From positions 116,355,794 through 116,419,793 of the forward strand of contig NC_055991.1 of assembly GCF_018446385.1 (NCBI RefSeq): a DNA stretch of 64,000 bases, in the 5' to 3' direction. This stretch comes from Zingiber officinale (taxonomy: Eukaryota; Streptophyta; Magnoliopsida; Zingiberales; Zingiberaceae). The notes under the pieces were generated by a model. That model was not told where the DNA came from. It searched no databases and saw only the letters and a list, made by a program, of their open reading frames with translations. Each line of letters starts with the position of its first letter. Within the stretch, counting starts at the first letter, position 1. A program made the position numbers and the translations under genes. Of this stretch, positions 23,551 through 59,330 are shown one piece after another.

Positions 23551-24020
23551 TGATCCGGGGATGATTCAGGGACGACTCGGGAGGGCCCACCCCTGAGGAA
23601 GTTTAGGGCTTTGGTAGGCGCCAAGATCAAGGTGGTCAACTAAGTGACCAACCGACCGGAAAGCTCTCCATCCCCGATCGACCGATAGAGAGCCGCGAGA
23701 GACAGCCGAGCTTACAGTGCACAAAGGCAGAGGATACTTTAGCAGATCGGCCGCGTCACACCGATCGAACCAATCAAGGAGAGCCAGTCAGACTAGTAGC
23801 CGACAAACAGGAACAGTAGCGACACGTGCCTACATCCTTTTGGGAGTTAGTGCCGCCGACGAGCGGCGTGGATGGATAGAAAATCGAACGGCAAGACAGA
23901 GAATCGTACGAGAGAAGCTTCCGCCACCTCGGCAGAGATATGCTCGCCCCATTATGGCAAGATGTTAGGGACACCTTCTCGATGCTGGCTTTTGGGGAAA
24001 TCTTGGGGAAGCATGTAATC
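23551..24020 (+). repeat. 5' LTR of the Tat element, first part
   Basis: This matches 45080-45550 of the 3' LTR. The LTR is interrupted at 24020 by the SIRE-like element and resumes at 34734. Confidence 0.9.
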
Positions 24021-25258
24021 TGTTGGATCGTGACGCACGTGAGAGGGGGGGTGAATCACGTGGTTTTGAAAAACACTTCTTTTTTATTTTTAAAACACGA
24101 GTGTACGCAGCGGAAAGTAAATACGAAAAGCAACACCAAAAATAACACAGGCGGTTTTTACTTAGTTCGGAACCTTCGGCGACTCCTACTCCAAGGCCCA
24201 GGTCCCGCGGACCTATCGATGGGCAATCCACTAAAAACCTCTTCCGGTACCCCGGAAGAGAGAATAGAGTACAATAAGAATGAAGCCAAATGCAACACAC
24301 TGCACTTGCCTTTTATAATAATTAAGTACAATAAAGGAAGTTTTACCAACACTTTTAAGGATCAAAAGATGAAGCACTTCATGTTGATGTCTATCTGCCG
24401 GGCGTGATCGGAACTCCTCGGAGCAGTCGTCAAGCGCAGCAGCTTCGTAGCAGGAGCCCAGAGCAGTTGGAAAGTCGTTTGGATACGTTGAAGCACGTAT
24501 GAGGGTTCTATATTTGAAGCTTGCTCAACCCCTCCTTTTATAGCCCTTTGGAGGAGTCTCCAGAGCTTATCAGATCCTAAAAATTCGGATCAGATGAGGA
24601 GAGTTCGAATCTGGCTGATTCCGGGCGCGCCCAACTATTTGTTTGACACAGTAATCTTCCGAATGTCATAACTTTTGACTCCGAACTCAGAATCAAGCTC
24701 TGTCAGTTGCTACGCATGCAGAATTCGAAGCTCTACATTTGTATCTACAACATAGAGTTACAAAAATATATGCATAAACAGTTTATATAGATTTATGATT
24801 TAGGTCATGTCTTCCCGAGACCAGAACATAGTCAGGGTCTCAATTTAGGGATCCAAAATGGACCTAAGCTGGACCGACGCCTACTGTCCCTTAATTGGGG
24901 CGCGCCCTCACAGTCACTCTCCTCCAGTGACTTACCTTTACTTACCTCTTGCCAGACATCCGGTCAACCCGTCGACCTATTTGGACTTCATGCCAGCTAT
25001 CCAGTCGGCCCGTCGACCTAGCTGGACTTTGTGCCAAATGTTCGGTCAGCCTGTCGACCCATTTGGACTTCGTACCAGCTATTCGGTCAGCCCGTTGACC
25101 TAGCTGGGCTTCGTGCGAGACATCTGGTCAACCCGTCGATCTGTCTGGACTTCTCCTGCACACTCGATCAGAGTGTTAGATCAACAACTCAACTACCTTA
25201 ACTTAATTTGTCATTCATCAAAACCTGAGTTAGACCGTTAGTGCTAACCGCACCAACA
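24021..25258 (-). repeat. 3' LTR of the SIRE-like non-autonomous element
   Basis: 1238 bp. On the - strand it starts TGTTGGTGCGGTTAGC. It contains a five-unit, about 40-bp hairpin array at 24951-25150. It pairs with 31055-34733 (minus the solo LTR inside that copy). Confidence 0.9.
24951..25150. repeat. 40-bp hairpin array in the LTR
   Basis: Five units of about 40 bp share the centre 'ggtcagcccgtcgacc'. Units are bounded by complementary 7-mers: CCAGCTA/TAGCTGG (24993, 25019), CCAAATG/CATTTGG (25034, 25060), CCAGCTA/TAGCTGG (25075, 25101). The first and last units pair less well. Confidence 0.85.
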
Positions 25259-25272
25259 ATCTCCCCCTTTTT
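25259..25272 (-). promoter_or_regulatory. Polypurine tract of the SIRE-like element
   Basis: On the - strand AAAAAGGGGGAGAT directly precedes the LTR start TGTTGG, the expected plus-strand primer. Confidence 0.75.
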
Positions 25273-28200
25273 GATGGAATGATAACCTGGTTAAGTTAGT
25301 GAAAAATATGCAAGTAAAAACAAGCATTTAAAGGGTTTTTAAGTTAGTTTGTATTTTCAATTTTGGTTTAGCTAACTTAACCACCTAACTCTCCCCCTTT
25401 GACATTCATCAAATACAATCATAGATCAAGTAATCATAAATACAAAAGAAATTAAAAGATACAAGCATGAGTCAGATTAACTTGGGGGAGTTTGAATGAT
25501 TAAAGGTTTTTGCTTTAAAAATATCTCTGAACCTTTTCAAAATAGCTAAGTTATGAAAAAAATAGCTAATTTTGTAAAATAGCTAAGTTTTGAAACTTAC
25601 TTTTCAAACATAAGTGTTACAAAGATAATTTTATAAAAATAAGATTTTCAAAACCAGGTTGATAGTAATTTACAAAACTCATTTTGCAAAAATCCTGATT
25701 GATAGTAAAGTTAAGTAAAACTTTACAAATTAGATTTGCAAAAATAAGTTAGTAAAAACTTATTTTGCAAAATTCTGATTTTCAAAACTAAGTAAAGTCT
25801 AATTTATAACATCACAAGTGAAGTCAACTTGTAAGCTAGATTCAATTCTCAAAATTAAGGAAAACGATTTTGAAAAACTTAGATTGTGAACCTAAACTTA
25901 AGTTTTGAAAAAATTAATTTTCAATAACAAAGCAATTTTCAAAACTAATTTTTGTAAAATTTAACATTCAAATCAAATTTGTCAAAATTAAGTAAAATCG
26001 AATTTTCATAACTAGATTTTCAAATTTCATTTTCAAAACTAAGTTTCTATTTGCTTAACTTAATTTTCAACATTAAGTTTGAAAAATTATAATTTCAAAA
26101 TTAAGTAAAGTCCAACTTTTAAGAGTAAGTTTGAAAAATCTAATTTTGAAAGCTAAGTTTGTAAAATTTGATTTTCAAATTCAATTTTTTTTTAAAAAAA
26201 ACTAAGTTAAAAAACACTTTTTAAGATCTAAATCTTTTAAAAATAACTTAGTTTTTATAGGAGTTAGTTTTCAAAAAGGAATTTTTAAGAAAAATATTTT
26301 TCAAACACAAATTTTAAAATATTTTTAATAAAGGGAAAATATTTAACTAATTCCTCCCTTGAACCTGATATTATTTTAAAGTAAAGCTTTTGAAAATAAG
26401 TGCTAAAAATATTTAAAGTAAGATATTTTTTTTTTGAGGTAGGATTTTCTAAAGAAATTTTAAAGAGAATTTTTTTAAAAAAAAATCTAAGAAGTTAAAA
26501 AAACTTAGGGAAATAATTTTTTAAGTAAATGTAAAAAGATGTGAACCTCCCCTGAATTTGATTTTTTTTTAATTACTTTCCCTTAATTTATTTCTCCCCT
26601 TGAATTTGAGGGGGTGTTTGGTTGATGGATTTGGGAATGAGGGAATGGAATGATAGTAAAAGATAGTGTTTGGATTGTGGGTTTGGGAATAATATTTTAG
26701 GAATGATTACTAGATTTATGAGAATCAACCAAACATATATAACTTGATGGGTTTCATTTCCATTCCTATTTCCATTCCACCCTACTATCAAATCCATACT
26801 CATAGTCATTCCCATCGTTTAACCAAACGTCCCCTGATACTCCCTCTGAATTTATTAGGATTAGCTAAGTTTAGAATTAATATTAAAGTTATTAAACAAT
26901 GTTAAGGTTTAATTTTGAATCAATCGTTAACAGTGATGAATTATGATTTAATTATAGTGAAATTAAGATTTTTATTAATGTTAAAATTAATATTTATTGA
27001 GTTAAATTAAGGTTAAGTATTAATTAACTGTTTAATGTGAGGTCAAATTTAATTTAGATTACAGTTAATTTTTGAAGTTCTTACTTCAATTATTGACTTA
27101 TTAAGTATTTAATTAAGTTTATAACCTTAAGTTAATCAAATTTTAATTATTTGTTAATAATATAATTAAGGTTTAGATTTTGTTTAACATATTTTATTGT
27201 AATTTGTTTTTTTTTATTTTAACTTTAAGTTTACTTGAAGTGCTTTTTAAATTAAAATAACTTTTAAAACTAATTTTTAAGAAAAAATTAATTTTTGAGT
27301 TAAAAGATTTTAATTTTTTTTTTAAGTTAAAAAAAATTAATATAATTTTTAAAGCGATTTAAGTGTAATTGTAGATTTTAAATTAACGTAAAATTTTAAG
27401 TTTTAAATTTAGATTAAGTTTAACATTAAAATTTTAATGTTAAGTTTTAATTTAAGTTTAATTTAATTTAACATTACATTTTAACTTTAATTTTAAAGTT
27501 TTAATTTGTGTTTTAAATTTAATTTTAAAATTTTTACTCAACTTAACTGTCATAGCTTTTTTTTTAAAAAAAATTAGGTAAATTAAATAACTTGTTAATT
27601 TCACGTTGTTAAATTACATTTAAGTAACATAAATTAAGAATTAATTTTAATTTAACTTTAAGTTTACCATAATTTAATTAGTTTAATTTAACTTAATTTA
27701 GTAAATTTTCAACTTAATTTAATTTTAGTTTTAGTTTTGATTAGTTTAACATAATTTTTTAAGATAGTTTTTAAGTTAAACAAAAAATAAAATTTAAAGT
27801 TAATTTTCATAAGGGAATTTTAAGTTAAAAATAAAATTTTAAGTTTAAATAAGATTTTAATTTAATTAAAGAGACTAAAATAATTTTTAAAAGGATTTTT
27901 AAAAGTTTTTTTAAAATAATTTTTAACATGATTTAAAAGTTTTATTAAAATAATTTTTAAAAGAGTTTTTTTAAATGATTTTTAAAAGTTTTTAAAATAA
28001 ATTTTTAAAAGAATTTTTTAAAATGATTTTTAAAAGTATTTAAAATGATTTTAAAATAATTTTTATAATGATTTTTAAAATAATTTTAAAATGATTTTTA
28101 AAGTTTTTAAAATGATTTTTAAAATAATTTTTAAAAGTTTTCAAAATTATTTTTAAAATAATTTTTAAAAGAATATTTAAAGTTTTAAAAGTAATTTAAA

Positions 28201-29150
28201 AGAATTTAAAATAATTTTTAAAGTTTTTTTAAATGATTTTTTAAAGAATTTTTAAAATGATTTTTTAAAGAATTTTTAAAATGATTTTAAAATGAATTTT
28301 TAAAAGAATTTTAAAAATTATTTTTAATGTTTTAAAATGATTTTTTAAATAATTTTTAAATGATTTTTTAAATAATTTTTAAATGATTTTTAAAATAATT
28401 TTTTAAATGATTTTTAAAAGTTTTTAAAATAATTTTTTTAAAAGAATTTTTAAAATGATTTTTCAAAGTTTTTTTTCAAAAAATAATTTTTAAAAGATTT
28501 TTAAAATGATTTTTAAAAGAATTTTTAAATGATTTTTAAAAGATTTTTTTAAATGATTTTTGAATGTTTTTTAAATGATTTTTAAAATAATTTTTAAAAT
28601 AAAAGTTTTTAAAAGAATTTTTTTTAAAAGTTTTTAAAAGAATTTTTTTAAAAGAATTTTTAAAATGATTTTTCAATGCTTTTAAAATAAATTTTAAAAT
28701 GATTTTTAAAAGGAATTTTTAAAATGATTTTAAAATGAATTTTTAAAAGAATTTTTAAAATGATTTTTAAAAGTTTTTTAAAATAATTTTTCAATGTTTT
28801 AAAATAATTTTTAAAAGAAAATTTTAAAAGAATTTTTAAATATTTTAAGTTTTTTTTACGATAATATTTAAGTTAAAATAATTTTTAAAATGATCTTTAA
28901 GTTAAGATAATTTTTAAGTTAAAATAGTTTTTAAGATAATGTTTAAGTTAAAATATTTTTAAAATATTTTTTAAGTTAAGATAATTTTTAAGTTAAAATA
29001 ATTTTTAAGTTAAGATATTTTTTTAAAATAATTTTAAGTTAAAAAGATTTTTTTAAATAATTTTTAGTTAAAAAGATTTTTAAAATAATTTTTAATTTTG
29101 TTTAGTTTAATTTTAATTTAATTTAATCTTAATCCTTAGTCATCTCACCC
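25273..29150. repeat. Long AT-rich low-complexity tract of the SIRE-like element
   Basis: Nearly 4 kb of degenerate A/T repeats. At 27900-28850 the units approximate 'aatgatttttaaaa', and at 25500-26300 they approximate 'cttattttgcaaaa'. There is no coding potential. A shorter tract of the same kind lies in the SIRE-like element at 56250-57460. Confidence 0.8.
26610..26834. mobile_element. MITE inside the AT-rich tract
   Basis: 225 bp flanked by TGA at 26607-26609 and 26835-26837. The ends are GGGGGTGTTTGGTT and the reverse complement of GGGGACGTTTGGTT; the interior has 'gggaatgagggaatgga' and its inverted partner. The GTTTGG end and 3-bp duplication fit the Tourist group, although TGA is not the usual TAA/TTA target. 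Confidence 0.65.
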
Positions 29151-29159
29151 GATCTAAGT

Positions 29160-29660
29160 TTTCAATCAAGGGATCTTATAATTTTGTGAGATGAATTTGA
29201 TTCAATTTTAGGGTTTGGTTTAACTTTGTGTTAGATTCAGGTTTAGCTTTGGGCTCAACAAATAAGCATTCTTCGGATAAACTTCTAGGCTATGGTGAGT
29301 CACTTGGACATCATTAGAGTAACCAAGCCTTCAAGGTTTTCCAAATAGTCCTATCCACGGAACTTAATACAAAGCCTTGCTCTAACTGGTTAGGATCTGT
29401 AAGGGGTAGCTTCGGCTAGTTCCACTTAGCCAAATGCACCAGGTCGAAGTCATATCTTCCTAGACATGCATAGACTAAGCTTCTCTAACGTACTATCATC
29501 CAAAACGTCACCAGTACTATTGGTCAAATTAAACCTTATCTTTTATTCTAGTCTTAATTACCCTGCCGGGTAGGTTGGTTTCGGTTACCCTTGTCGGGTA
29601 TATTAGTTTTGATTACCCTGCCGGGTAGATTATTTTGGAGGTGTTAGCTATTCTGGAGCC
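29160..29660 (-). repeat. Conserved non-coding spacer block, copy 1
   Basis: On the - strand this block runs from three TACCC-GGCA-GGGTA-like boxes through 'gcatgtctaggaagatatga' to 'gggtgagatgactaagg'. It aligns along its whole length with 56560-57050 of the SIRE-like element on the + strand. Stops occur at matching places in the most open frame of both copies, so it looks non-coding. Confidence 0.75.
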
Positions 29661-29819
29661 TCCCCCTAAATTATTGATTTTCCTTTTAAGATTTTTTTAG
29701 TTTTAGTTAAGATTTAATGTTTAATTTATAATTTAGATTTAAGTTTTTAATTTTGAATTAATTAAATTGGTCAAATTATCCTTCTTTAAGAGGGTGTATT
29801 TATTATTTGAATTTTCTTT

Positions 29820-30719
29820 CTATTTTAATTTTATTAAGTTAATTGAGTTATCTTTATTTAATGGATTATCGTTAATGATTGAGTTTTTATTAATTTTTAA
29901 ATTTGAATTAATTAAATTATATTTCTTTAAAGGTTTATCTTTTAATCTTTTAGTAACGGTTAATTTTAAATTTTCCAGATTATCTTGAGTTTGGATAAGA
30001 CTTTCTAGATTAATATTGTCTAGATTAAATAAGTTATTAATTTTATCTAGATCAATATTGACCTTGTCATCTTTTTTGTTTGAATTTTCAAATTTGTTTA
30101 GGTTTAAATTCGAATTTTTAGATTTATTAATTATTTTTAGATTTTCTGTATTTTCTAAATTAATTATATTTGTTTTATCAGAAAATATCCTAGGGATATT
30201 TTCTGAATTAATTATGTTTGTTTTATCAGAAAATATTCTAGGAGTATTTTTGCAAGTATTGTCATGTACACTATTTTCACATATACTTTCAGACATATCC
30301 AAATTAACATGCACATATTTTAAACTACTACTAACAAGGGTGTTTTGGTAAGTATTACTAACCTTGAGCGTAACCCCTAATTCAGCAGGCTTCTCCGTTG
30401 GATCTGACTCGAGTTCGGATTCGATTTTTACTTGATCGTCTGAGTCCAACGGCTTCTCGTGAAGCTTGATCAACCGGGTCCAAAGCTCACACGCATTCTT
30501 GCACTTTTCTAGTCTATATAAAACATTGTTAGGTAAAACACTACAAATAATTTTACTTACATTTTTGTTCAGTTCCGGGTCATGAGAGGGTTTTCTCAAT
30601 ATTAGCACATAATCGAAATCTAAGCTTCCTAAGAAGCATTCCATTAATTGCTTCCAGTAGTTGAAATCTTGATCATATGGTGGTGGTTCGTGGGGGTTCT
30701 GTCCTTCTAGAAGAGTCAT
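29820..30719 (-). pseudogene. SIRE-like gag-type frame (fossil)
   Basis: It starts MTLLEGQNPHEPPPYDQDF; 'FNYWKQLMECFLGSLDFDYV' and 'ACELWTRLIKLHEKP' correspond to the 'FGYWKGQMETFLKTQFDTW' and 'AKELWEKLIELHKG' segments of the gag at 54591. The C-terminal half is a Lys/Asn-rich region with an 'RIFSDKTNIIN' duplication. It looks like the N-terminal half of a Copia gag followed by low-complexity sequence. Confidence 0.65.
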
Positions 30720-31040
30720 TGAATGCTGAAGATTAAAAACTAAAAAGTGGTGTCAAGACTTGGTCTTGGATTAGCAGTGTGGGGGAAAAAATATAGTATT
30801 GCACTAATTTCGAAAAAAATAATAAAATATTAAAAAAAATATTATTTCAAAATTTTGGAAATGTAATATTTTGTCAATACTAAACAATGGTGAAAGATGA
30901 TGATGTATTTTTCAAAAACAGTTTTGGAGGGAAAAACGAAAGGCGTAAGGTTTTATTTTAAAGACAAACAATATCTAATTTTCTTTTAAAAAGAACCCCC
31001 CTTGCTCGATTGGTGGTTGCACTAATTCAGAGCGGTATCC

Positions 31041-31054
31041 ACTCTGATACCACT
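31041..31054 (-). promoter_or_regulatory. Primer-binding site of the SIRE-like element
   Basis: On the - strand the LTR end CCAACA is followed by AGTGGTATCAGAGT, matching the initiator tRNA-Met type site. This fixes the element on the - strand. Confidence 0.75.
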
Positions 31055-34000
31055 TGTTGGATCGTGACGCACGTGAGAAGGGGGGGGGGGTGAATCACGT
31101 GGTTTTGAAAAACACTTCTTTTCGATTTTTAAAACACGAGTGTACGCAGCGGAAAGTAAATACGAAAAGCAACATCAAAAATAACACAGGCGGTTTTTAC
31201 TTGGTTCGGAACCTTCGGCGACTCCTACTCCAAGGCCCAGGTCCCGCGGACCTATCGATGGGCAATCCACTAAAAACCTCTTCCGGTACCCCCGGAAGAG
31301 AGAATCGAGTACAATAAGAATGAAGCCAAATGCAACACACTGCACTTGCCTTTTATAATAATTAAGTACAATAAAGGAAATTTTACCAACACTTTTAAGG
31401 ATCAAAAGATGAAGCACTTCATGTTGATGTCTATCTGTCGGGCGCGATCGGAACTCCTCGGAGCAGTCGTTGAGCGCAGCAGCTTCGTAGCAGGAGCCCA
31501 GAGCAGTCGGAAAGTTGTTTGGATACGTTGAAGCATGTATGAGGGTTCTATATTTGAAGATTGCTCAACCCCTCCTTTTATAGCCCTTTGGAGGAGTCTC
31601 CAGAGCTTATCAAATCCCAAAAATTCGGATCAGATGAGGAGAGTTCGAATCTGGCTGATCCCAAGCGCGTCCAACTACTTGTTTGACACGGTAATCTTCC
31701 GAGGGCCATAACTTTTGACTCCGAACTCAGAATCAAGCTCTGTCAGTTGCTACGCATGTAGAATTCGAAGCTCTACATTTGTATCTAGCTACAACATAGA
31801 GTTATAAAAAAAATATATGCATAAACAGTTTATATAGATTTATGATTTAGGTAATGTCTTCCCGAGACCAGAACCTAGTCAGGGTCTCAATTTAGGGATC
31901 CAAAATGGACCTAAACTGGACCGACGCCTACTGTCCCTTAACTGGGACGCGTCCTCACAGTCACTCTCCTCCAGTGACTTACCTTTACTTACCTCTTGCC
32001 AGACATCCGGCCAGCCCGTCGACCTGTCTAGACTTCATGCCAACTATCTAGTCGGGTCGTCGACCTAGCTGGACTTCGTGCCAAATGTCCGGTCAGCCCG
32101 TCGACCCATTTGGACTTCGTGCCAGCTATCCGGTTAGCCCGTCGACCTAGCTGAGTTTCGTGCTAGACATCCAGTCAGCCCATCTGTTGGTTAAACCTAG
32201 GAAAACGTACCGGTTCCACTGTACAAAAATTTTTGTACAAGTGTCGAACCTTTCCTTAAATAACCTATTGTGTTCTTTAGAAGTTAAATAAGGAATCGCA
32301 GGCGGAACTTAACATCATTGATTCCAAATTTAACTTATCTGTTCTTAATGGTTTAGATTTGAATCGCAAGCGGAACTTAACACTATTGATTCAAATCTAC
32401 CTAGGTTATTAATTCCATAAATATTAATTTCCAAAATTGACTTTCAGGACTGCATGGCGAGGCACATGACCTTCTTGGATATGGGAGCAACCACCACCGC
32501 TTAGACAAAGCCTTTTAAGGAAAGCTAATATTTATTTCCTTAAATAACTCTAGGTTAACCAAAAGGAACAATCGAATCACAAGTTCGAAAAAGAAGAAAA
32601 CACAAACTCGAAAAACTATTTCAAAAAACTAGATCTAATTACCTCTTGTATTTAGAATTCTTACAAAGAGAAAAACTAGCATGATGTGGAAAATAATTGT
32701 TAATTATACCTTCTCTTTGTATGCTAATGACCTCGAGATCTTCTGCCGTATTCCTCGCCTCGCCTTGGACGTCGTGTGGGCGACGATCCTCCAAGATGAA
32801 CACCACCCAAAAGCTTCCTCCTTCTTCTTCTAAAATCCGGCCACCACCACCACCAAGGAGAAGAGAGCAAAGGGAGAGGAAGAAGGGAGAGGGCCGGCCA
32901 CACCAAGAGATCACCCAAGCAAAAGAATAAGAGTTGTGTCTCATGAAGCCCCCTCACCCCTTCTTTTATATTACTTGCCCAAGGCAAATAAGGAAAAACC
33001 TTTTACAAAAAATAAAATCATCCAAGAGTTTTTCCTTTTCCTTTTTATTTTTCCTTTTCTTTCCTCTTGATTGAATTAATCATCAATCAATGGTTGAGAT
33101 CAATCCTATTTGATTTAGGATTAAGCTTGGTCGGCCCCTTGCTTGGGCACCAAGCAAGGTGGCCGGCCACCATGTTTTAGGAAAGGAATAATAATTTTTT
33201 TAAAAAAAATTTACAAGAGAAAAACTCTTATAAAATTTTACAAGCTCTCTTTCCTAAAGTAGGAGTTAAAAAAAAGGAAAGTTTCTAAAAATTAAAATCA
33301 TGTTTTAAATTTAAAAACTCTCTTATAAAATTTCCTTTTTTAACATGATGATAGAAAATTTTAATTTTAAAACTTATCTCCCTTTTTTTTCTAAACCATG
33401 AGGATGGTTAAAAAGGAAGGTTTTAAAACTTTTAAAACTCTCTATTAAAACATGTGGCCTAATTCAAATAAGGAAAGTTTTAAAAAATTAAAAACTCTCT
33501 TTTAAAACTTATAGTTTTCTACAAAGAGAAGATTTTAAAAATTCAAAACACTCCTCCTATTTGAATTAATCTTGGCCGACCCCTATAAGCTTGGTCACCA
33601 AGCTATAGGGCCGACCCCTATAAGAGGATGTGGCTGGCCATTGCCCCTTCTTGGACACCAAGAAGAGCCTTACATTTGGATGGACTTGAGGCTATAATGA
33701 GGCTACGACAGTGACCTAGAGGAGAAATTGGTTTTGGCCTTCCGATGAGCTTGAGTATCCCGTGCTCGCCCTGAACACACAACTCAAGTTCATCGATAAC
33801 AACTCATTCCACTAGAGAGTTATTACCGCACTACCGCACCAATCCCAAATTACATTATAGGCTCCTTCTTATCATGAGTGTGTTAGTCTCCCTGTGTTTA
33901 AGATTACGAATGTCCACTAATTAAGTAAGTTACTGACAACTCACTTAATTAATATCTATCTCCAAGAGTAGTACCACTCAACTTTATTGTCATGTCGGAC

Positions 34001-34733
34001 TAGGTCCACCTGTAGGGTTTAACATGGCAATCCTTATGAGCTCCTCTTGGGGGCATTCTCAACCTAGATAACTAGGACACATATTCCTTTTATAATCAAC
34101 AACACATACTATAAGTAATATCATTTCCCAACTTATCGGGCATATTGATTTATCGAGCTAAACCTCACCCTTTGATAAGTCAAAGAAATAAATATTAAAT
34201 ATATGTGCTTGTTATTATATTAGGATTAAGAGCACACACTTCCATAATAACTAAGGTCTAGTTTTTTTATTAAGTCAGTACAAAAAGAACTTACCTAAAT
34301 GATCCTACTCAATACACTTAAAGTGTATCAATGTAATTTATTAGTCAAGATAAACTAATACTTAATTACACTACGACTATTCTGATGGTTTGTTCCTTTC
34401 CATTTTAGTCGTGAGCAACTTGTTTATAATTTATAGAGAACCGACAACATGATCTTCTGAGTGTGACACCACATTCCATGTTGTCTACTATATAAATTAA
34501 TTGAACAATTACATTTAACAAATAAATGCAGATATTGACTAATGTGATTCTTTTATTTCAACAAATAAATGTTTACAAAAGCTAGGCTTTTAGTATACAC
34601 TCTAACACCATCGACCTGTCTGGACTTCTCCTGCACACTCGATTAGAGTCTTAGATCAACAACACAACTACCTTAACCTAATTTGTCATTCATCAAAACC
34701 TGAGTTAGACCGTTAGTGCTAACCGCACCAACA
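31055..34733 (-). repeat. 5' LTR of the SIRE-like element, split by a solo LTR
   Basis: The LTR sequence occupies 31055-32184 and 34613-34733 (about 1250 bp in total) and matches 24021-25258. The solo LTR at 32185-34607 and its target duplication lie between, inside the fifth unit of the hairpin array (31998-32184). Confidence 0.9.
32185..34607. mobile_element. Solo LTR, 2.4 kb
   Basis: Starts TGTTGGTTAAACC and ends CTCTAACA, flanked by identical 5-bp duplications CCATC (32180-32184 and 34608-34612). No internal coding domains, primer site or polypurine tract are seen, which fits a solo LTR left by recombination between two LTRs. It is the youngest layer of the nest by position. The lineage is not identified. 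It contains a perfect 20-bp palindrome at 32220-32239. Confidence 0.8.
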
Positions 34734-35009
34734 CAATCTACTCGTCAAGGCTCTATATAAGAAGGGAGATTGCCCTCCGCGGAGGTATGCAGGATACATC
34801 TCTTGAAGCTACTATTCATCACTTTCTTCTTATTCCTATCTCTACTTGTCGTTGTGTGACTTGGGCGTCGGAGGGCCATCGCCGGGAACCCCCTCCCGGC
34901 TTGGCACTAACGACTTGTGGTTGCAGGAGCATAGGATCATCCGCGAAGACGAAGAGCCACCTCAGCATTACTTCTCGACTGCCATCTCCTTAACATCATG
35001 GCAAGATCA
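34734..35009 (+). repeat. 5' LTR of the Tat element, second part
   Basis: This matches 45551-45825 of the 3' LTR. 'ctctatataagaaggg' is the TATA region and transcription probably starts shortly after. The LTR ends in GGCAAGATCA. Confidence 0.9.
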
Positions 35010-40272: not shown

Positions 40273-40792
40273 GAAGAGGTGCACGAATGAGTTCATGTTG
40301 TAAGACCGTTAGATTCGATAGAGGGGGGGGTGAATATCGATTCGAAAATCTCGAGTTAAAACGCAGCGGAAAAGTAAGGAAGTAAAGAGATGAACACGGT
40401 TGATTTTTACTTCGTTCGGAGCCTGTGACGACTCCTACTCGAAGGCCCGTACTCCTTGAGCACTTTCGTTGGGCAATTCACTAGCAATTCGGATAATTAC
40501 AATTTACGTACAAATATTGCTAATGAAAAAAACAAAGCTATACCGACAACTAATGAATTAAAAGAAAACCGGAGTGAGTCGTCGGAGCTTTGTGAACGTC
40601 GTTGGAGCGCAGAGTAGCAGAGTGATTGAACTCAGAGTTCTCAGAACACAGATATATTGAAGCTCCTGCCTGGGGCTTCTTTTATATGCTGCTCCGGGCG
40701 CCTGGATCCCTTCCGGGCGACTGGAATGTGACGTAACACTCCCAACCAGCATGCTCCAAGTGTCAACGTCGCCCTGGGGATAAAACTTGCCT

Positions 40793-40860
40793 CCGGGCGC
40801 CTGGATACCTTCCAGGCGCCCGGACTTCCGGGCGCCCAGAACCATCCCGGGCGCCCGGAC
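40793..40860. repeat. GGGCGCCC hairpin array in a solo LTR
   Basis: CCGGGCGCCTGG and its exact reverse complement CCAGGCGCCCGG are separated by 7 bases at 40793-40823. Two further 'ccgggcgccc' boxes follow. Similar boxes occur from 40690. Confidence 0.8.
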
Positions 40861-41130
40861 CCTCACTGTTTCCTACCTGCAAAACAGTGTTAGTCTGAGG
40901 CAAATAAAAACTCTGCAGCACAGATTGTAAGCACATTTTTATAGATACGCTAAGTAATAAAAATTAACAACAAGAGTATGACTTAGATTCCGTCTTTCCG
41001 AGACCGGAATCTAGTCACGATCTCGACTTAGATATCCGAAATGGATCTAAGCCGGATCGACGCCTAATGTTCCCTTCCCGGGAACGCGTCCTCGCAGTCA
41101 CTCCCCTCCAGTGACTTACCTCACTTACCT

Positions 41131-41312
41131 GCCAGACGTCCGGTCAGCCCTTCGACCCGTCTGGACTTCTCGCCAGCTATCCGGTCAGCCCGTCGACCTA
41201 GCTGGACTTCTCGCCAAGCGTCCGGTCAGCCCGTCGACCCGCTATCCGGTCAGCCCGTCGACCTAGCTGGACTTCGTGCCAGACATCTGGTCGGCCCGTC
41301 GACCTGTCTGGA
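41131..41312. repeat. 40-bp hairpin array in a solo LTR
   Basis: Units with complementary 7-mers: CCAGACG/CGTCTGG (41132, 41158), CCAGCTA/TAGCTGG (41173, 41199), and CCAGACA/TGTCTGG (41279, 41305). One central unit is shortened. They share the 'ggtcagcccgtcgacc' centre with the arrays at 24951 and 31998. Confidence 0.85.
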
Positions 41313-41500
41313 CTTCTCCTGCACACTTTATCAAAGTGTCAGACAACAACAGACTAACTTAACCTGATTTGTCATTCATCAAAACCTGGGTTAAATCGTT
41401 AGTGCTAACCGCACCAACACATGTATTCCTTCGTTTGTATACCCTTGTTGAATGCAGGAAGAAAACAACTCAAAGTTTCCTCAAGTCCCCGTCTAACCAA

Positions 41501-41788
41501 CGCGTCATCGGCGGTCGAGCGACGACCTTAAACCCTCGTATCATCGGCGGTCGAGCAGCGACCTTAAACCCTCGCGTCATTGGCGGTCGAACGGCGACCT
41601 TAAACCCTCGCTTCATCGGCAGTACAGCGGCGACCTTAAACCCTCGCGTCATCGGTGGTCGAGCGGTGACCTTAAAGTCTCGCATCATCGGCGGTCGAGC
41701 GGCGACCTTAAACCCTCACTTCATCGGCGGTCGAGCGGCGACCTTAAACCCTCGCGTCATCGGCGGTCGAGCGGCGACCTTAAACCCA
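41501..41788. repeat. Eight tandem copies of a 36-bp unit
   Basis: The unit contains 'atcggcggtcgagcggcgac' and 'cttaaaccctcgcgtc'. Eight full copies differ by a few substitutions and a partial copy follows. Because 36 is divisible by three the array stays open as a repeated IGGRAATLNPRV in one frame, but nothing else supports translation. Tandem arrays in the 3' region are common in Tat elements. Confidence 0.9.
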
Positions 41789-45079: not shown

Positions 45080-45825
45080 TGATCCAGGGATGATTCAGGG
45101 ACGACTCGGGAGGGCCCACCCCCGAGGAAGTTTAGGGCTTCGGTACACGCCAAGGTCAAGGGGGTCAACTAAGTGACCGGAAAGCTCTCCATCCCCGATC
45201 GGCCTATAGAGAGCGGCGAGAGACAGCCGAGCTTACAGTGCCCAAAGGCAGAGGATACTTTAGCCGATCGCCCGCGTCACACCGATCGAACCAATCAAGG
45301 CTAGTCAGACTAGTAGCCGACAAACAGGAACAATAGTGACACGTGCCTACAGCCTTTTGGGAGTTAGTGCTGCCGACGAGCGGCGCAGATGGACAGAAAA
45401 TCAAACGGCAAGACAGAGAATCGTACGGGAGAAGCTTCTGTCACCTCGGCAGAGATATGCTCGTCCCGTTATGATAAGATGTCAGGGACACCTTCTCGAT
45501 GCTGACTTTTGGGGTAAGTTTGGGGAAGTGTGTCCACTCGGGAAACGTGCAATCTACTCGTCAAGGCTCTATATAAGAAGGGAGATCGCCCTCTGCGAAG
45601 GTACGTAGGATATATCTTTTGAAACTACTATTCATCACTTTCTTCTTATTCCTATCTCTACTTGCCGTTATGTGACTTGAGCGTCGGAGGGTCGTCGTCG
45701 GGAATCCCCTTCCGGCTTGGCACTAACGACTTGTGGTTGTAGAAGTACAGGATCATCCGCGAAAATGAAGAGCCACCTCAACGTTACTTCCCGGCTGCCA
45801 TCTCCTCAACATCGGGGCAGGATCA
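45080..45825 (+). repeat. 3' LTR of the Tat element
   Basis: 746 uninterrupted bp, TGATCC...GGATCA. It supplies the undisturbed target sequence of the SIRE-like insertion (gcaatctactcg at about 45548) and 'ctctatataag' as TATA region. Confidence 0.95.
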
Positions 45826-47046: not shown

Positions 47047-47280
47047 TGTAAGAGAAAATTGGGAGGAGGATAAGGGAACAAAGATGGACAAGTGAAATAC
47101 AATAATCTCTCACGTTTTTTCATTAAATCATAAAACATGTAGCATATTTATAAGCTACTTACATAACCCACTAACTCCACAATTCATCCTACTAACTCAA
47201 CTACTCAACTCCACTACTACCACTACTACCACTCATTGCCATCACTAACTCAATTGTTAATTTTGAGTCATTTATCAACT
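47047..47280 (-). repeat. 3' LTR of the Tork-like element
   Basis: Matches 51449-51651; contains 'actaccactactaccactcattgcc' microrepeats not fully shared by the other LTR. A purine tract (- strand 'aagggggag') adjoins at 47281-47289. Confidence 0.85.
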
Positions 47281-47452: not shown

Positions 47453-48463
47453 GATCAACAAGTTAAGTTAGGTCCTGTGTGTTTCTAACCTTGTGTCTAA
47501 GTGTGCAGGAGCTTAGGAGCACAGGTACTCGAGCGGAAGACGCAGCTAGCGAGAAGAATGGCACGCGGTGCGTCCGAGGGACGAGGTGCTGCGGAAGAGT
47601 ACCCCGGTGGATGAGAAGGAAGCGTGTGGTGGTTCCGAGGGACGAAAGCCGGACCGGAAGATTACTCGAGGAGCAAGAAACGCAGCTAGCGAGAAGGTCA
47701 GCACGGGGTGCGACCGAGGGACGAAGACTGCAGATGAGTACGCTGGTGGATGAGAAGGAAACACGCGGCGATTCCGAGGGACGAGAAGCCGGAGCGGAAG
47801 GCTGCTCGAGAAGACCGGAAGTTAGGTTCGGGTGAGCCCTTTTTCGGATGGCAGAGATCACCCAAGTGAGCGGATCCGGAGTAGAAGACCCGGACTGAGG
47901 CGGACCGAACCGGAGCAAAGGTCCCGATGGAGAAAAGTCAACATCTGTTGACTTGGGGGTCCATGGCGCCCGGAACAGTCCGGGGCGCCCGGAACAGTCC
48001 GGGGCGCCCGGACCATCCTGGGGCGCCCGGAACCCCTCCGGGCGCCCGGACTAGGATGTTTGACTAGAACGCGTCTAATGCGTTCTGAACATTGGGGGAT
48101 AAAGTTTTATCCCCCCAGGGCACCCGGAACCCTTCAGGGCGCCCCGGCCAAGGTTATAAATATAGCCTTGGTCCAGAAGCTTTTCAACGAACTCAAGATT
48201 TGTAATTCCAACGCTTGTATGCTTTAGAGTTGTAGTTGAGCTTCTGATTCTGCGCGTCAACGTTGTAAGAGGCTTCTCCGCCTGAAGGAGATTGATAGTG
48301 AGCTTTTTCCTTGGATTAATAACCACATCGGTTGTAACCAAGTAAATATTTGTGTCTCTTACTTTTAGTTTATTTTGTCGATCGCTTTTATATTAATGCA
48401 AGTGTTAGCTTAAGAGTTCGAGGAAGGGTTGTTTGTTTTTAACTTTTACAGGGCTATCCAACA
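47453..48463 (+). mobile_element. LTR fragment inserted in the Tork-like element
   Basis: It ends '...gggctatccaaca' at 48463, an LTR-type CCAACA end, while its 5' TGTTGG end is missing. It contains two copies of a roughly 150-bp unit ('gacgcagctagcgagaag' ... 'ggtggatgagaagga' ... 'gagggacga') at 47536-47820 and a GGGCGCCCGGA array at 47965-48055. It is related in style to the SIRE-like LTRs. The left border is approximate, and no target duplication was found. Confidence 0.55.
47965..48150. repeat. GGGCGCCCGGA palindrome array
   Basis: At least five 'gggcgcccgga' boxes at 10-20 bp spacing, each built on the palindrome GGGCGCCC, with two looser boxes near 48117-48148. They allow alternative GC-rich hairpins. 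Confidence 0.8.
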
Positions 48464-51448: not shown

Positions 51449-51651
51449 TGTTATAAAAATTGGGAGGAGGATAAGGGGACAAAGATGGACAAGTGAAACA
51501 CAATAATCTCTCATGCTTTTTCATTAAATTATAAAACATGTAGCCTATTTATAAGCTACCTACATAACCCACTAACTCAATTACTCTACCCCACTACTAC
51601 CACTCATTGCCACCACTAACTCAATTGTTAATTTTGAGTCATTTATCAACA
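51449..51651 (-). repeat. 5' LTR of the Tork-like element
   Basis: 203 bp matching 47047-47280, next to the primer site and ending at the CACTT duplication. 'ctatttataagc' supplies a TATA region on one strand. Confidence 0.85.
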
Positions 51652-52874: not shown

Positions 52875-53259
52875 ACTATACGACAACCGAGCCAGAGAAT
52901 CGTAATAGCTTGTCGGAGAATAATTGCTGCATGTCAGGGAATATGCTAACGGTCTAGGGCTCATTGCACATTGATCCCTCCCTAAACCTATAAGAAGAGG
53001 CCACGTGTCATTCACCGCCAGACAAATCTTGACACCAAACATTTCCTGACACCCGTCAGACTCCAGAAGTGCCCACCGCCATATAAAAAGAGAGGCTTTG
53101 TCTCTATGCAGGTATGCTCTGTTGGTGCAGGAAGCATCCGACGATCGAACCTAAGTTTTGATAATGGCAAAAGATTCAAAGTTAAGGTTATGTTGTGATC
53201 TAACAAGTCTGTTTAAGTGTTTCAGGAAAAGTCCTAGCTGTGGTTAGGCAAGTGAAAAC

Positions 53260-53425
53260 CCTAGGGGGTAGTAACCCTAGGTCATAGGGGGTGGTAACCC
53301 TATGCGGAAAATCTTGGTGGGTCGAGTGCTTCAGGCAAAAGTCCTAGGGGGGGTAACCCTAGGTGGAAAGTCCTGGTGTCGCGAACCAGGTGAAAGACTG
53401 GACCAGCCGGGAAGCGGACGTCCAG
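53260..53425. repeat. Series of short hairpins with differing stems in the SIRE-like LTR
   Basis: CCTAGGG/CCCTAGG (53260, 53275), CATAGGG/CCCTATG (53283, 53298), CCTAGGG/CCCTAGG (53343, 53357), CCTGGT/ACCAGG (53372, 53385) and CTGGAC/GTCCAG (53398, 53420). The first three share a 'ggtrgtaa'-like loop. Confidence 0.8.
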
Positions 53426-53712
53426 CAGAAAGTCTGGAAGCATCGAGCACCGAGTAAAAGTCCAGTCAATCTGGAGGATCGCACTGGCAACAGGTAAATC
53501 TCCTGAGTGGAGTAGGTGAGGACGCGTTCCCCGTAGAGGGAACAGTAGGCGTCGGGTTGACCTAGGGTTTTCGGTCGGAAATCTGAAAATCGGGAGACTG
53601 TCAAACTTTAATTCATTATTATTATTGTGCACTAACTCGGTGTTGCAGGTACTTTGGACTAACGCATCTTGCAGGTACCAAAAAACACAAGCTAAGCTCG
53701 GATGTATAGTGT

Positions 53713-53930
53713 CCGAGGCGCCTCCATGGGGCGTGGAGGCGCCTCGGGTGCGAGCCAGCTTCTGCCAGCGCAGCTCAGTGGAGGCGCCTTGGACCGGGCT
53801 TTGAAGGCGCCTTGGAGAGCACAGAAGGTGCCTTGAAGGGATAAGTCACAACCAGTTCAGGCTTGATCCACGCGGGCGACTCGGCCATCCTAGAGGCGCC
53901 TTGGATAGCTTTCAAGGCGCCTTGAACACC
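53713..53930. repeat. GGCGCC hairpins in the SIRE-like LTR
   Basis: CCGAGGCGCCTCCA and its exact reverse complement TGGAGGCGCCTCGG lie at 53713 and 53734 with a 7-base loop. Further 'aaggcgccttgga' boxes follow to about 53930. Confidence 0.85.
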
Positions 53931-54338
53931 CTTTATAAGCAGCACTCGACCAGCAGCTCTGTACAACTGCTCCTAAGCGATTCTCTTATGACAAGCTGCA
54001 AACTCAATGACCCCGAAGTGTTGTAGCAACATCCCGACGACCCGGAGCTCCAAATTCACTATTTTTTAAGTGTTGTCAGTATACTTTAACTTCTGTTTAT
54101 TGTACTTAATTTGTAGTATTTTCGAACTTATAGTTGTTGCCCACCGAAAGTGATCAACGACCGCGGGCCTTCGAGTAGGAGTCAAGAGAGGCTCCGAACG
54201 AAGTAACCTCTCGTGTCTTCTGTGTGTTTGTGCATTTTACTATTTCCGCTGCTTTATAACTCGATAGTTTTACGAATCCGTGAACGAAATAGCCACGAGC
54301 GCTATTCACCCCCCCTCTAGCGTATCTCGATCCAACAA

Positions 54339-56249: not shown

Positions 56250-57460
56250 TTAATAAAATGAACATAATTAAAAAATTTAAAATTCAAAATTCAATTAAAA
56301 ATTTAAAATTAAATTAAAAAAAATTCAAAATTCAAAATTTCAATTAAAAATTCGAAATTAAATTAAAAATTAAAAATTTGATATTAAATTAAAAAAAATC
56401 AAAATTCAAAATTAAATTCAAAATTCAAAATTCAATTAACAATTCAAAATTAAATTAAAAACTTAAAATTCGAAACTCAATTCGAAATTAATTCAAAATT
56501 AATTCAAAATTAAAAGTAAAATTCAACTTAAATCAAATAAAAATAGAAGGAGGATCCAGAATAGCTGGCATCCCCAACTAAATCTACCCGACAGGGTAAT
56601 CGAACTTTACCTATTCGACAGGGTAAATAGGGTTAGATTAAAATGGGCTAGGTTTAACTTGACCCACGGTACTGGTGAAGTATTGGATGATAGTACGTTG
56701 GGGAAACTTAGTCATCGCATGTCTAGGAAGATATGACTTCGATCTGGTGCATTTGGCTAAGTGAAACTGACTGAAGCTACCCTTTATGGATCCTAACCAG
56801 TTAGACCAAGGTTTTGTACTAAGTTCAATGGGTAGGACTATTTGGAAAACCTTAAAGGCATGGTTACTTTAATGATGTCCTTATGACTCACCATAGCCCA
56901 GAAGTTTATCCAAAGAACGTCTATTTGTTGAACTCAAAGCTAAACCTGAATCTAATACAAAGTTAAACTAAACCTTTAAATTGAAACTAATTCATCTCAC
57001 AAAAATTTTAGGATCTCCTGATTAAAAATTTAGATTGGGTGAGATGACTAAGGATTATAAAAAATTAATTCAAAATTAAATTCAAAATTAATTCAAATTA
57101 TTTTTTTAATCAATTTAATTAACTTAAAATTATTTTTCAAAATTAATTAACTTAAAATTATTTTTCAAAATTAATTAACTTAAAATTATTTTTCAAAATT
57201 AATTAACTTAAAATTATTTTTTAAAATCTTAAAATTATTTTTCAAAATTAATTAACTTAAAATCATTTTTTCAAAAATTAATTAACTTAAAATTATTTTT
57301 TCAAAATTAATTAACTTAAAATTATTTTTCAAAATTAATTAACTTAAAATCATTTTTTCAAAAATTAATTAACTTAAAATTATTTTTTCAAAATTAATTA
57401 ACTTAAATTATTTTTTGAAATTAATTAACTTAAAATAAATTTTCAAAATAAGTTAACCTA
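56250..57460 (+). repeat. Non-coding spacer: AT arrays around a conserved block (copy 2)
   Basis: 56270-56540 is an array of 'aaaattcaaaattaaatt' variants. 56560-57050 is the block shared with 29160-29660. 57115-57440 is a tandem array of about 27 bp ('aattaacttaaaattatttttcaaa') with about a dozen copies. The spacer separates the gag linker from protease. Confidence 0.8.
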
Positions 57461-58739: not shown

Positions 58740-59026
58740 TGTAACGACCCGCCTTCTACTGGCTAGGCTGTAAGGTCGGACCGTCACATTATGCTGTGCT
58801 AAGCTATATCCATGACCATTAGTAAGTCTAGGTGCGGAAAACTGTATCAATTTAAAACCTTGCTAAGCTAATACAAGTTCTTGGTCCTACATGTGCTAAG
58901 GGATGCAATCTAAGGTATACATGGCATATCCTACATCCCCTATGGTCACGAAGCTGAATTACAAGGTAGAGTGGTCGAAACCCAACTTCCCAATCGATCC
59001 AGACTGAACTTGATCAATTGCAAGCT

Positions 59027-59330
59027 GTTGGATCGATCCATGGATCGATTCAGATCGCTACTGTGCTCGGGTAATACTCTGGATCGATCGACTGATCGAT
59101 CCAGATTGGCCAATCGATCCAGTGATCGATTCCAGTGCTCTCTATTCGCGGGAGCGATTTCCTGATCGATCGAACGATCGATCCCTAAACTCTCTGTTTG
59201 AGACAGAATGCGACTGGATCGATCGGCTGATGGATCCAGAAGCTTACTGTTCGCGGAACCAGGCTCCCAATTGATCCGCTGATCGATTGAGGGCCCCCAA
59301 TCGATCCACTGATTGATTGGGGTTTCTGAT
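59027..59330. repeat. GATCGATCCA repeat cluster in the Tekay-like LTR
   Basis: About a dozen 'gatcgatc' or 'aatcgatcca' boxes. CTGGATCGATC and its reverse complement GATCGATCCAG stand at 59079 and 59094 around a 4-base loop. Confidence 0.85.

Follow-up and report, generated by a model that had tools for sequence, protein, structure and literature searches.

Paired arm changes in tandem hairpins of Sirevirus-type LTRs

The DNA analyzed here, called the window below, is the whole stretch of 64,000 nucleotides. It is plant-like DNA crowded with nested retrotransposons, among which the following were considered:

24021-34733, minus strand: array-bearing Sirevirus-type element, 5' LTR on the right and 3' LTR on the left, recognized by its LTR pair, TSD and a related empty target
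24021-25258, minus strand: LTR1, the 3' LTR, 1238 bp, with TGTTGG...CCAACA ends; the PPT adjoins at 25259
31055-34733, minus strand: LTR2, the 5' LTR, interrupted by a nested element at 32185-34607
40299-41419, minus strand: LTR3, a solo LTR lying between two copies of CATGT (ACATG in the sense of the element)
53120-54337, plus strand: LTR of a related Sirevirus-type element, followed by gag-like, zinc-knuckle, Pol beta-barrel and gag-pre-integrase ORFs

The TSD of the array-bearing element reads TAATC (24016-24020) and CAATC (34734-34738), with one mismatch, and a related, uninterrupted copy of its target lies near 45550 of the window. An earlier note on this DNA had spoken of three related LTRs; three copies are present, but they are not independent, as LTR1 and LTR2 are the 3' and 5' LTRs of one element and were presumably identical at insertion. 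The nested element in LTR2 (TGTTGG...TAACA) splits unit 5 of the array described below, and CCATC is found at 32180-32184 and at 34608-34612. In the related element, copia-type gag, zinc-knuckle, Pol beta-barrel and gag-pre-integrase domains scored above the Pfam cut-offs, a retroviral SH3 match lay at the cut-off and an integrase-core match below it. No pol was recognized in the internal domain of the array-bearing element when its 17 open stretches of at least 40 aa were compared with the other elements of the window. The one weak match was to a stretch directly upstream of, and in frame with, the gag ORF of the related element (43 aligned residues, E of 8e-5 in a small custom set), and the similarity to that gag ORF itself was weaker (39 residues, E of 0.005). 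The 310-aa ORF at 29820-30752 had no Pfam match up to an E of 10. The array-bearing element is probably a non-autonomous derivative. It also contains, at 27876-28840, about 82 copies of a 12-bp repeat, TAAAATGATTTT, which is a near-palindrome (AAAAT-G-ATTTT). An internal part of it (28763-29608) has an inverted 79% match to 56576-57449, between the gag and Pol ORFs of the related element, and AGGGGGAG octamers occur near both partners (29660 and 56225).

The assignment to the Sireviruses was examined against the published hallmarks of this group (PMC2829016). The signals concerned are the following:

25261-25268, minus strand: terminal PPT octamer AGGGGGAG, followed by AT and then by the TG of the LTR
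25391-25398, minus strand: second copy of the PPT octamer
31042-31052, minus strand: primer binding site, TGGTATCAGAG

The element matches most of these hallmarks, namely the non-coding ones. The terminal PPT starts ten bases before the 3' LTR and is followed by the AT/TG junction (25257-25268, minus strand), a 12-mer that occurs only once in the window. Exact octamers near the 3' LTR number two, the terminal one included (25261 and 25391), with another far upstream at 29660; three to five PPT copies have been published for the linkers upstream of Sirevirus 3' LTRs (PMC2829016). The PPT is enclosed by an inverted repeat, TTTTGATGGAATGA / TTTTGATGAATGA, whose right arm lies 35 bp inside the LTR, compared with an average of 28 bp in the published set (PMC2829016). 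The 5' junction is CA/AGTGG TATCAGAGT, also given as CA/AGTGG-TATCAGAG, with a primer binding site matching at eight of nine positions; the Sirevirus consensus is CA/ATTGG (or AGTGG) and then TATCAGAGC (PMC2829016), and the related LTR at 53120-54337 has it exactly. A poly-C integrase signal, reported at about 21 bp from the end of Sirevirus LTRs (PMC2829016), is represented by CACCCCCCCTCT near the end of LTR1 and by similar sequences in the related and solo LTRs.

Each of the three LTRs of the first family carries an array of hairpin units, which in LTR1 lies upstream, in the sense of the element, of TATA-like sequences:

24951-25155, minus strand: hairpin array 1, five 41-bp units with stem types A-B-C-B-A
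31998-32184, minus strand: hairpin array 2, units 1-4 and the first 22 nt of the unit-5 hairpin; the remainder is at 34613-34623
41131-41311, minus strand: hairpin array 3, units 1, 2, fused 3/4 and 5
24537-24542, minus strand: TATA-like box CTATAAAAGG, which follows array 1 after about 410 bp in the sense direction (pattern match only)
24784-24789 and 24312-24317, minus strand: further TATA-like matches in LTR1 (pattern matches only)

We compared 15 units from the three LTR copies, two of them partial, with N for the missing bases. Read in the plus orientation, a unit consists of a 7-nt arm, a 3-nt bulge, GGTC, an 8-nt loop, GACC, a second 7-nt arm and an 8-nt spacer, so that the 41 bp hold a 33-nt bulged hairpin and the spacer. 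The units of roughly 40 bp with complementary 7-mers and an inner GGTC/GACC pair were thus found where they had been reported, as were all four outer stems that had been listed (CCAGCTA/TAGCTGG, CCAAATG/CATTTGG, CCAGACA/TGTCTGG and CCAGACG/CGTCTGG). A fifth stem, CCAAGCG/CGCT..., is cut by a deletion (41214-41243). Units 1 to 5 are of types A, B, C, B and A in all three LTRs, which indicates that the array was inherited as a block. In array 3, a short deletion has joined unit 3 to unit 4, and units 1, 2 and 5 are whole; all its scorable stem pairs are Watson-Crick. The bulge reads TCC in 10 of the 15 units and keeps its length in all 15, and the loop departs from AGCCCGTC by scattered changes in nine. 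None of the core differences tracks the stem type, whereas pairs 4-7 of the outer stem do differ between types; the outermost CCA/TGG of the arms is nearly constant. No further copy of the unit core was found in the window with up to four mismatches.

Array 1 occupies sense positions 104-308 of LTR1, and the TATA-like matches are at 470, 717 and 942 of its 1238 positions. Lying upstream of all three, the array should belong to U3. If these matches are used, it would be regulatory DNA in the 5' LTR and would be present in the genomic RNA only near the 3' end. A role in RNA packaging or dimerization, one of those that had been considered for the array, becomes less likely with this placement, the TATA-like matches being recognized by pattern only. 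The G+C content of the arrays is 0.56-0.65 and their CpG observed/expected ratio 0.91-1.08, in arrays of only about 200 bp; the corresponding figures are 0.39 and 0.79 for the window and 0.9 and 0.81 for LTR1 outside the array. By eye, a splice-donor-like GGTAAGT follows directly after the array in the sense direction, at 41114-41131 of the solo LTR (CAGGTAAGT) and at the matching place in LTR1, and the solo LTR has a branch-point-like and a TTGCAG-acceptor-like sequence about 250 bp beyond it; together they might represent the relic of an intron-like sequence in U3. Next to the solo LTR, a 36-bp repeat is present in eight copies (41501-41787), and its consensus contains a GGTCG/CGACC dyad, making another tandem hairpin-like array.

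Across the 15 units, 94.3% of 159 pair cells are paired, G-U included, against 12.4-45.5% in controls with slid partners. Cells changed on both sides numbered 20, compared with a mean of 7.4 after shuffling, and the covariation score was 0.363, compared with 0.178; neither value was reached in any of 500 shuffles. Pairs in which both sides had changed (four; 269 of 500 shuffles as high) and further pair types (nine; 481 of 500) were no more numerous than in the shuffles. The double changes are confined to pairs 4-7 of the outer 7-bp stem, and the inner 4-bp stem has none in the 15 units. One alignment column holds both A-U and C-G, a transversion pair with no single G-U step between its two forms.

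These shuffles disregard the relatedness of the units. A tree null was therefore built from parsimony changes on two topologies, a tree with the types as clades, which favors inheritance, and a star of five positions. The two outer-stem arms were simulated independently with the same changes per column and with branch weights taken from the data. The Watson-Crick pairing of the outer stem was 0.929, compared with null means of 0.701 and 0.706, and none of 20,000 simulations reached the observed value on either topology, in a test whose branch weights come from the same data, whose root states were chosen to be complementary and which covers few independent events. The co-variation, which the earlier note had made dependent on such a correction, persists for the outer stem once the shared ancestry of the units is modeled.

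The changes can also be ordered relative to insertion. On the types-as-clades tree, each arm has seven outer-stem changes on internal or solo-LTR branches, and all seven are complementary double changes. Two of them were placed on solo-LTR branches, which may span time after the solo copy's own insertion; a placement on the LTR1/2 branch is possible as well. Outer-stem changes private to LTR1 or LTR2, which must have arisen after insertion, also number seven, at six sites, and all are one-sided: five break a pair and two leave G-U. The contrast between the older and the private branches has a Fisher p of 0.0006, with the reservation that the times before and after insertion are unmatched and young private changes may simply await compensation. 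A comparison that needs less tree-building gives a similar picture. The fixed outer-stem differences between LTR1/2 and the solo LTR are six and make up three complementary pairs; six differences placed randomly on the 58 stem sites would form complete pairs with a probability of 9e-5. Fixed differences without a partner were found at four core and five spacer sites; at one of the core sites, in unit 2, LTR1/2 have lost an inner pair. The suggestion that the stem changes go beyond plain duplication and point to selection for the fold, or to a process maintaining it, is a fair reading of the shuffles, the tree null and these fixed paired differences.

Between LTR1 and LTR2, the array differs at 24 of 202 sites and the rest of the LTR at 37 of 1036 (p of 8e-6), that is, 3.3 times as often. 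With the solo LTR as reference, 22 of the 24 array sites can be polarized, and the direction is C>T or G>A at 19 of them. The array also has more transitions per CG or CHG site (15/62) than the remainder of the LTR (13/174; p of 0.001). The imperfect pairing that had been noticed in a few units is, in LTR1 and LTR2, best read as decay after insertion. Only about seven independent events lie behind the co-variation, and they derive from three stem types within a single stretch of a single genome.

Arrays 1, 2 and 3 contain three, two and four perfect stems of at least 6 bp. At least as many occurred in 5, 18 and 0 of 200 shuffles, respectively, so that array 2 by itself gives weak evidence for an excess, and one of the four stems of array 3 is a GTCGAC pair across units rather than the proposed stem. 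The rest of the LTRs is enriched as well, with eight perfect stems in LTR1 (4.0 shuffled; 7/200), ten in the solo LTR (3.43; 0/200) and six in the related LTR at 53120-54337 (3.19; 17/200 by count and 0/200 by paired bases), so that stem-richness belongs to the whole LTRs. What distinguishes the array is the repeated unit with changing arms. The RNA folding z was −2.38 for array 1 and −2.46 for array 3, and for 9 of the 13 whole units, folded singly, the same bulged hairpin is predicted. Owing to the A-B-C-B-A order, array 1 is predicted to fold with all its units nested. As a single long hairpin, this order was found not to be special, with 36 of 120 orders at least as stable. The arrays had no Rfam match at the gathering thresholds.

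The related LTR offers a comparison from a second family. The palindromic regions involved are as follows:

53225-53490, plus strand: hairpin array at the corresponding position with other stems, five of them perfect and of 6-7 bp
53713-53922, plus strand: GGCGCC-centered palindromes, three of them perfect, upstream of the TATA-like sequence of the related LTR
40792-40859, minus strand: CGG-CCG-type palindromes of the solo LTR, with a TATA-like sequence about 100 bp downstream

The five perfect stems of the array at 53225-53490 compare with 0.72 in shuffles (0/200), and its fold z is −3.55 (0/200). None of the five is among the stems of the first family, and the correspondence of the arrays in the two families is positional, not sequence-based. 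Two of its hairpins have similar loops and the stems CCTAGGG/CCCTAGG and CATAGGG/CCCTATG, a paired difference of the transversion type. Both the solo LTR and the related LTR have a second type of palindrome (CGG-CCG or GGCGCC) that lies nearer to the TATA-like sequence than the array does. Further palindromes occur elsewhere in the window. A tandem CGG-CCG-like palindromic repeat (GGCGCCCGGAACAGTCCGG) is found at 47965-48050, near a copia element whose short LTR-like repeats lie at 47055-47279 and 51456-51650; a AGGGGGAG octamer is situated at the repeat edge. The stretch 59000-59320 is dense in GATCGATC-type dyads, reminiscent of the Tnd-1 motif ACAATCGATTGT listed in PMC2829016.

The earlier note knew of no described LTR feature of this kind. 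However, palindromic repeated motifs (RMs) in the upper half of Sirevirus LTRs, before the TATA box, have been published (Bousios et al. 2010, PMC2829016), and the arrays resemble them, since they too consist of palindromic units repeated in the LTR ahead of a TATA box, which is here identified by pattern. The inner GGTC/GACC stem is close to the CGGTC/GACCG half-sites of the RMs of rice Osr8 and Osr10 and of a Vitis element (PMC2829016). Of the CGG-CCG core signature, the right half, GACCGG, is common in the sense direction, and the left CGG is present in some units only, such as unit 1 of the solo LTR. RM clusters have a CpG island as a published feature, and regulatory roles have been suggested and stress-factor sites reported for the RMs (PMC2829016). 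The published boxes are 10-20 bp long and mostly start 200-400 bp into the LTR; an element has at least eight of them altogether, with 3-14 in its 3' LTR (PMC2829016). Here, in contrast, each LTR has five units of 33-nt bulged hairpins, starting at LTR position 104, 104 bp in, and the stems differ between units.

In maize, Sirevirus palindromes are described as targeted by small RNAs (PMC5311732 and PMC10760457, citing Bousios et al. 2016), and their region shows high sequence variability and rapid evolution (PMC5311732). The arrays are like this cis-region in consisting of LTR palindromes and in diverging 3.3-fold over the rest of the LTR, although the most abundant maize Sirevirus motif, CACCGGACNNNGTCCGGTG, was not found as such in them. 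It has also been proposed that template switching creates and repairs stems, giving compensatory changes of several bases (PMC8794818). The complementary change of both stem arms is like this process, which was described for RNA genes and DNA replication; in the inserted chromosomal copy studied here, however, the private changes are one-sided. Co-variation of the arms of Sirevirus RMs was not found in the literature searched, including the results and the RM discussion of PMC2829016, and Bousios et al. 2016 may report it. The array is a variant of a described Sirevirus feature, and the new part is the evolutionary signal of paired versus one-sided change. In viral contigs, the 18-base core matched 13 stretches once each, with no second copy within 150 bp and a flank complementarity of 0-5 of 7, and these matches were attributed to chance. 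A 265-aa query from the integrase region of the relative found three stretches in viral contigs by pattern and none by tblastn, and the 19-base pattern of the LTR start had no match there.

We suggest, with a probability of roughly 0.55, that the capacity to fold is maintained by selection in the replicating lineage, the array being a structured cis-region, and that it decays in fixed copies. The array would be the palindromic repeat region of a Sirevirus-type LTR, made up here of longer bulged hairpins and placed in U3, before the TATA box. As the lineage replicates, the array would keep its ability to fold back while the sequence of the outer stem drifts, and changes of the arms would become fixed as complementary pairs. 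Each genomic copy would then decay, and the prevalence of C-to-T change is what methylated, silenced DNA should show; the link of the arrays to methylation and silencing is likewise our interpretation. Its probable role is that of regulatory DNA upstream of the promoter which the genomic RNA also carries, in U3 close to the 3' end, as a row of hairpins able to feed small-RNA silencing. Position and the maize literature suggest that its function may be promoter control, RNA handling or that of an unavoidable small-RNA template. Pairs 4-7 turn over, complementarity and bulge length stay and the core is not linked to the type, which is the pattern expected of a folded nucleic acid; RNA or single-stranded DNA would then be the form that matters. 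Counting against this explanation are the inner stem without co-variation, the frequency of scattered core changes and the stem-richness of the whole LTRs.

The pairing is in our view kept by selection, but mutation might keep it instead. A polymerase, most likely the reverse transcriptase of the element, might switch template within the hairpin and copy the other arm. A single event would then yield a complementary change, stem creation and repair of this kind have been proposed (PMC8794818), and type B is separated from the inferred root by a single branch on which two neighboring pairs changed. However, copying of a whole arm would tend to remove the 3-nt bulge, which lies beside the variable pairs and is retained in every one of the 15 units, and the seven private changes of LTR1 and LTR2 all lack a counterpart in the opposite arm. 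Ordinary chromosomal replication therefore does not seem responsible, while reverse transcription could still be. Mutation without selection is in our view an unlikely cause, yet one to be reckoned with. That the structure is kept in the replicating lineage at all, by selection and template switching taken together, we regard as rather probable.

A different role would be that of palindromic sites bound by host transcription factors as duplex DNA, as in other retrotransposon activators of this kind, with folding irrelevant. The position upstream of TATA-like boxes, the regulatory roles and stress-factor sites put forward in PMC2829016, a 19-bp centre that has no consistent difference between stem types and could be bound, and the nearly constant CCA/TGG would suit such sites; a dimer site should, however, keep its half-site sequence, and the change of pairs 4-7 with retained complementarity makes this quite improbable. 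Independent C-to-T decay at matching sites of both arms deserves mention: with the solo LTR taken as the ancestral state, all six of the fixed outer-stem differences that separate it from LTR1/2 are consistent with C>T or G>A. Such decay may have produced these six differences, but as the sole cause it is disfavored and very improbable, for the core CpGs of units 1 and 3 are still found in LTR1 and/or LTR2 and were hence intact at insertion (unit 2 lost one), and the A-U versus C-G difference in column 5 is a transversion pair. Finally, a few unit types might have been palindromes by chance and then been copied, which would fit the existence of only three to four types and the origin of two of the three LTRs in one element. 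This is scarcely credible in view of the tree null (0/20,000) and of the different perfect-stem array in the related LTR.

We propose tentatively, and with somewhat less than even confidence, that Sirevirus LTR palindromes may be kept as folded structures, in U3 RNA or in single-stranded cDNA during reverse transcription, and not as duplex sites. The arms would then co-evolve in the moving lineage, fixed copies would lose the fold, and the sequence could turn over completely from one related family to another with the array of hairpins still at its position. A structural role might be told apart from duplex binding sites by the contrast described here, in which older branches carry double changes and the period after insertion one-sided ones. 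A large plant genome offers many copies for such a test, and the two LTRs of each copy provide a built-in clock. The contrast would bear on a question posed as open in PMC10760457, namely why retrotransposons such as the Sireviruses keep structured regions although these may invite small-RNA silencing.
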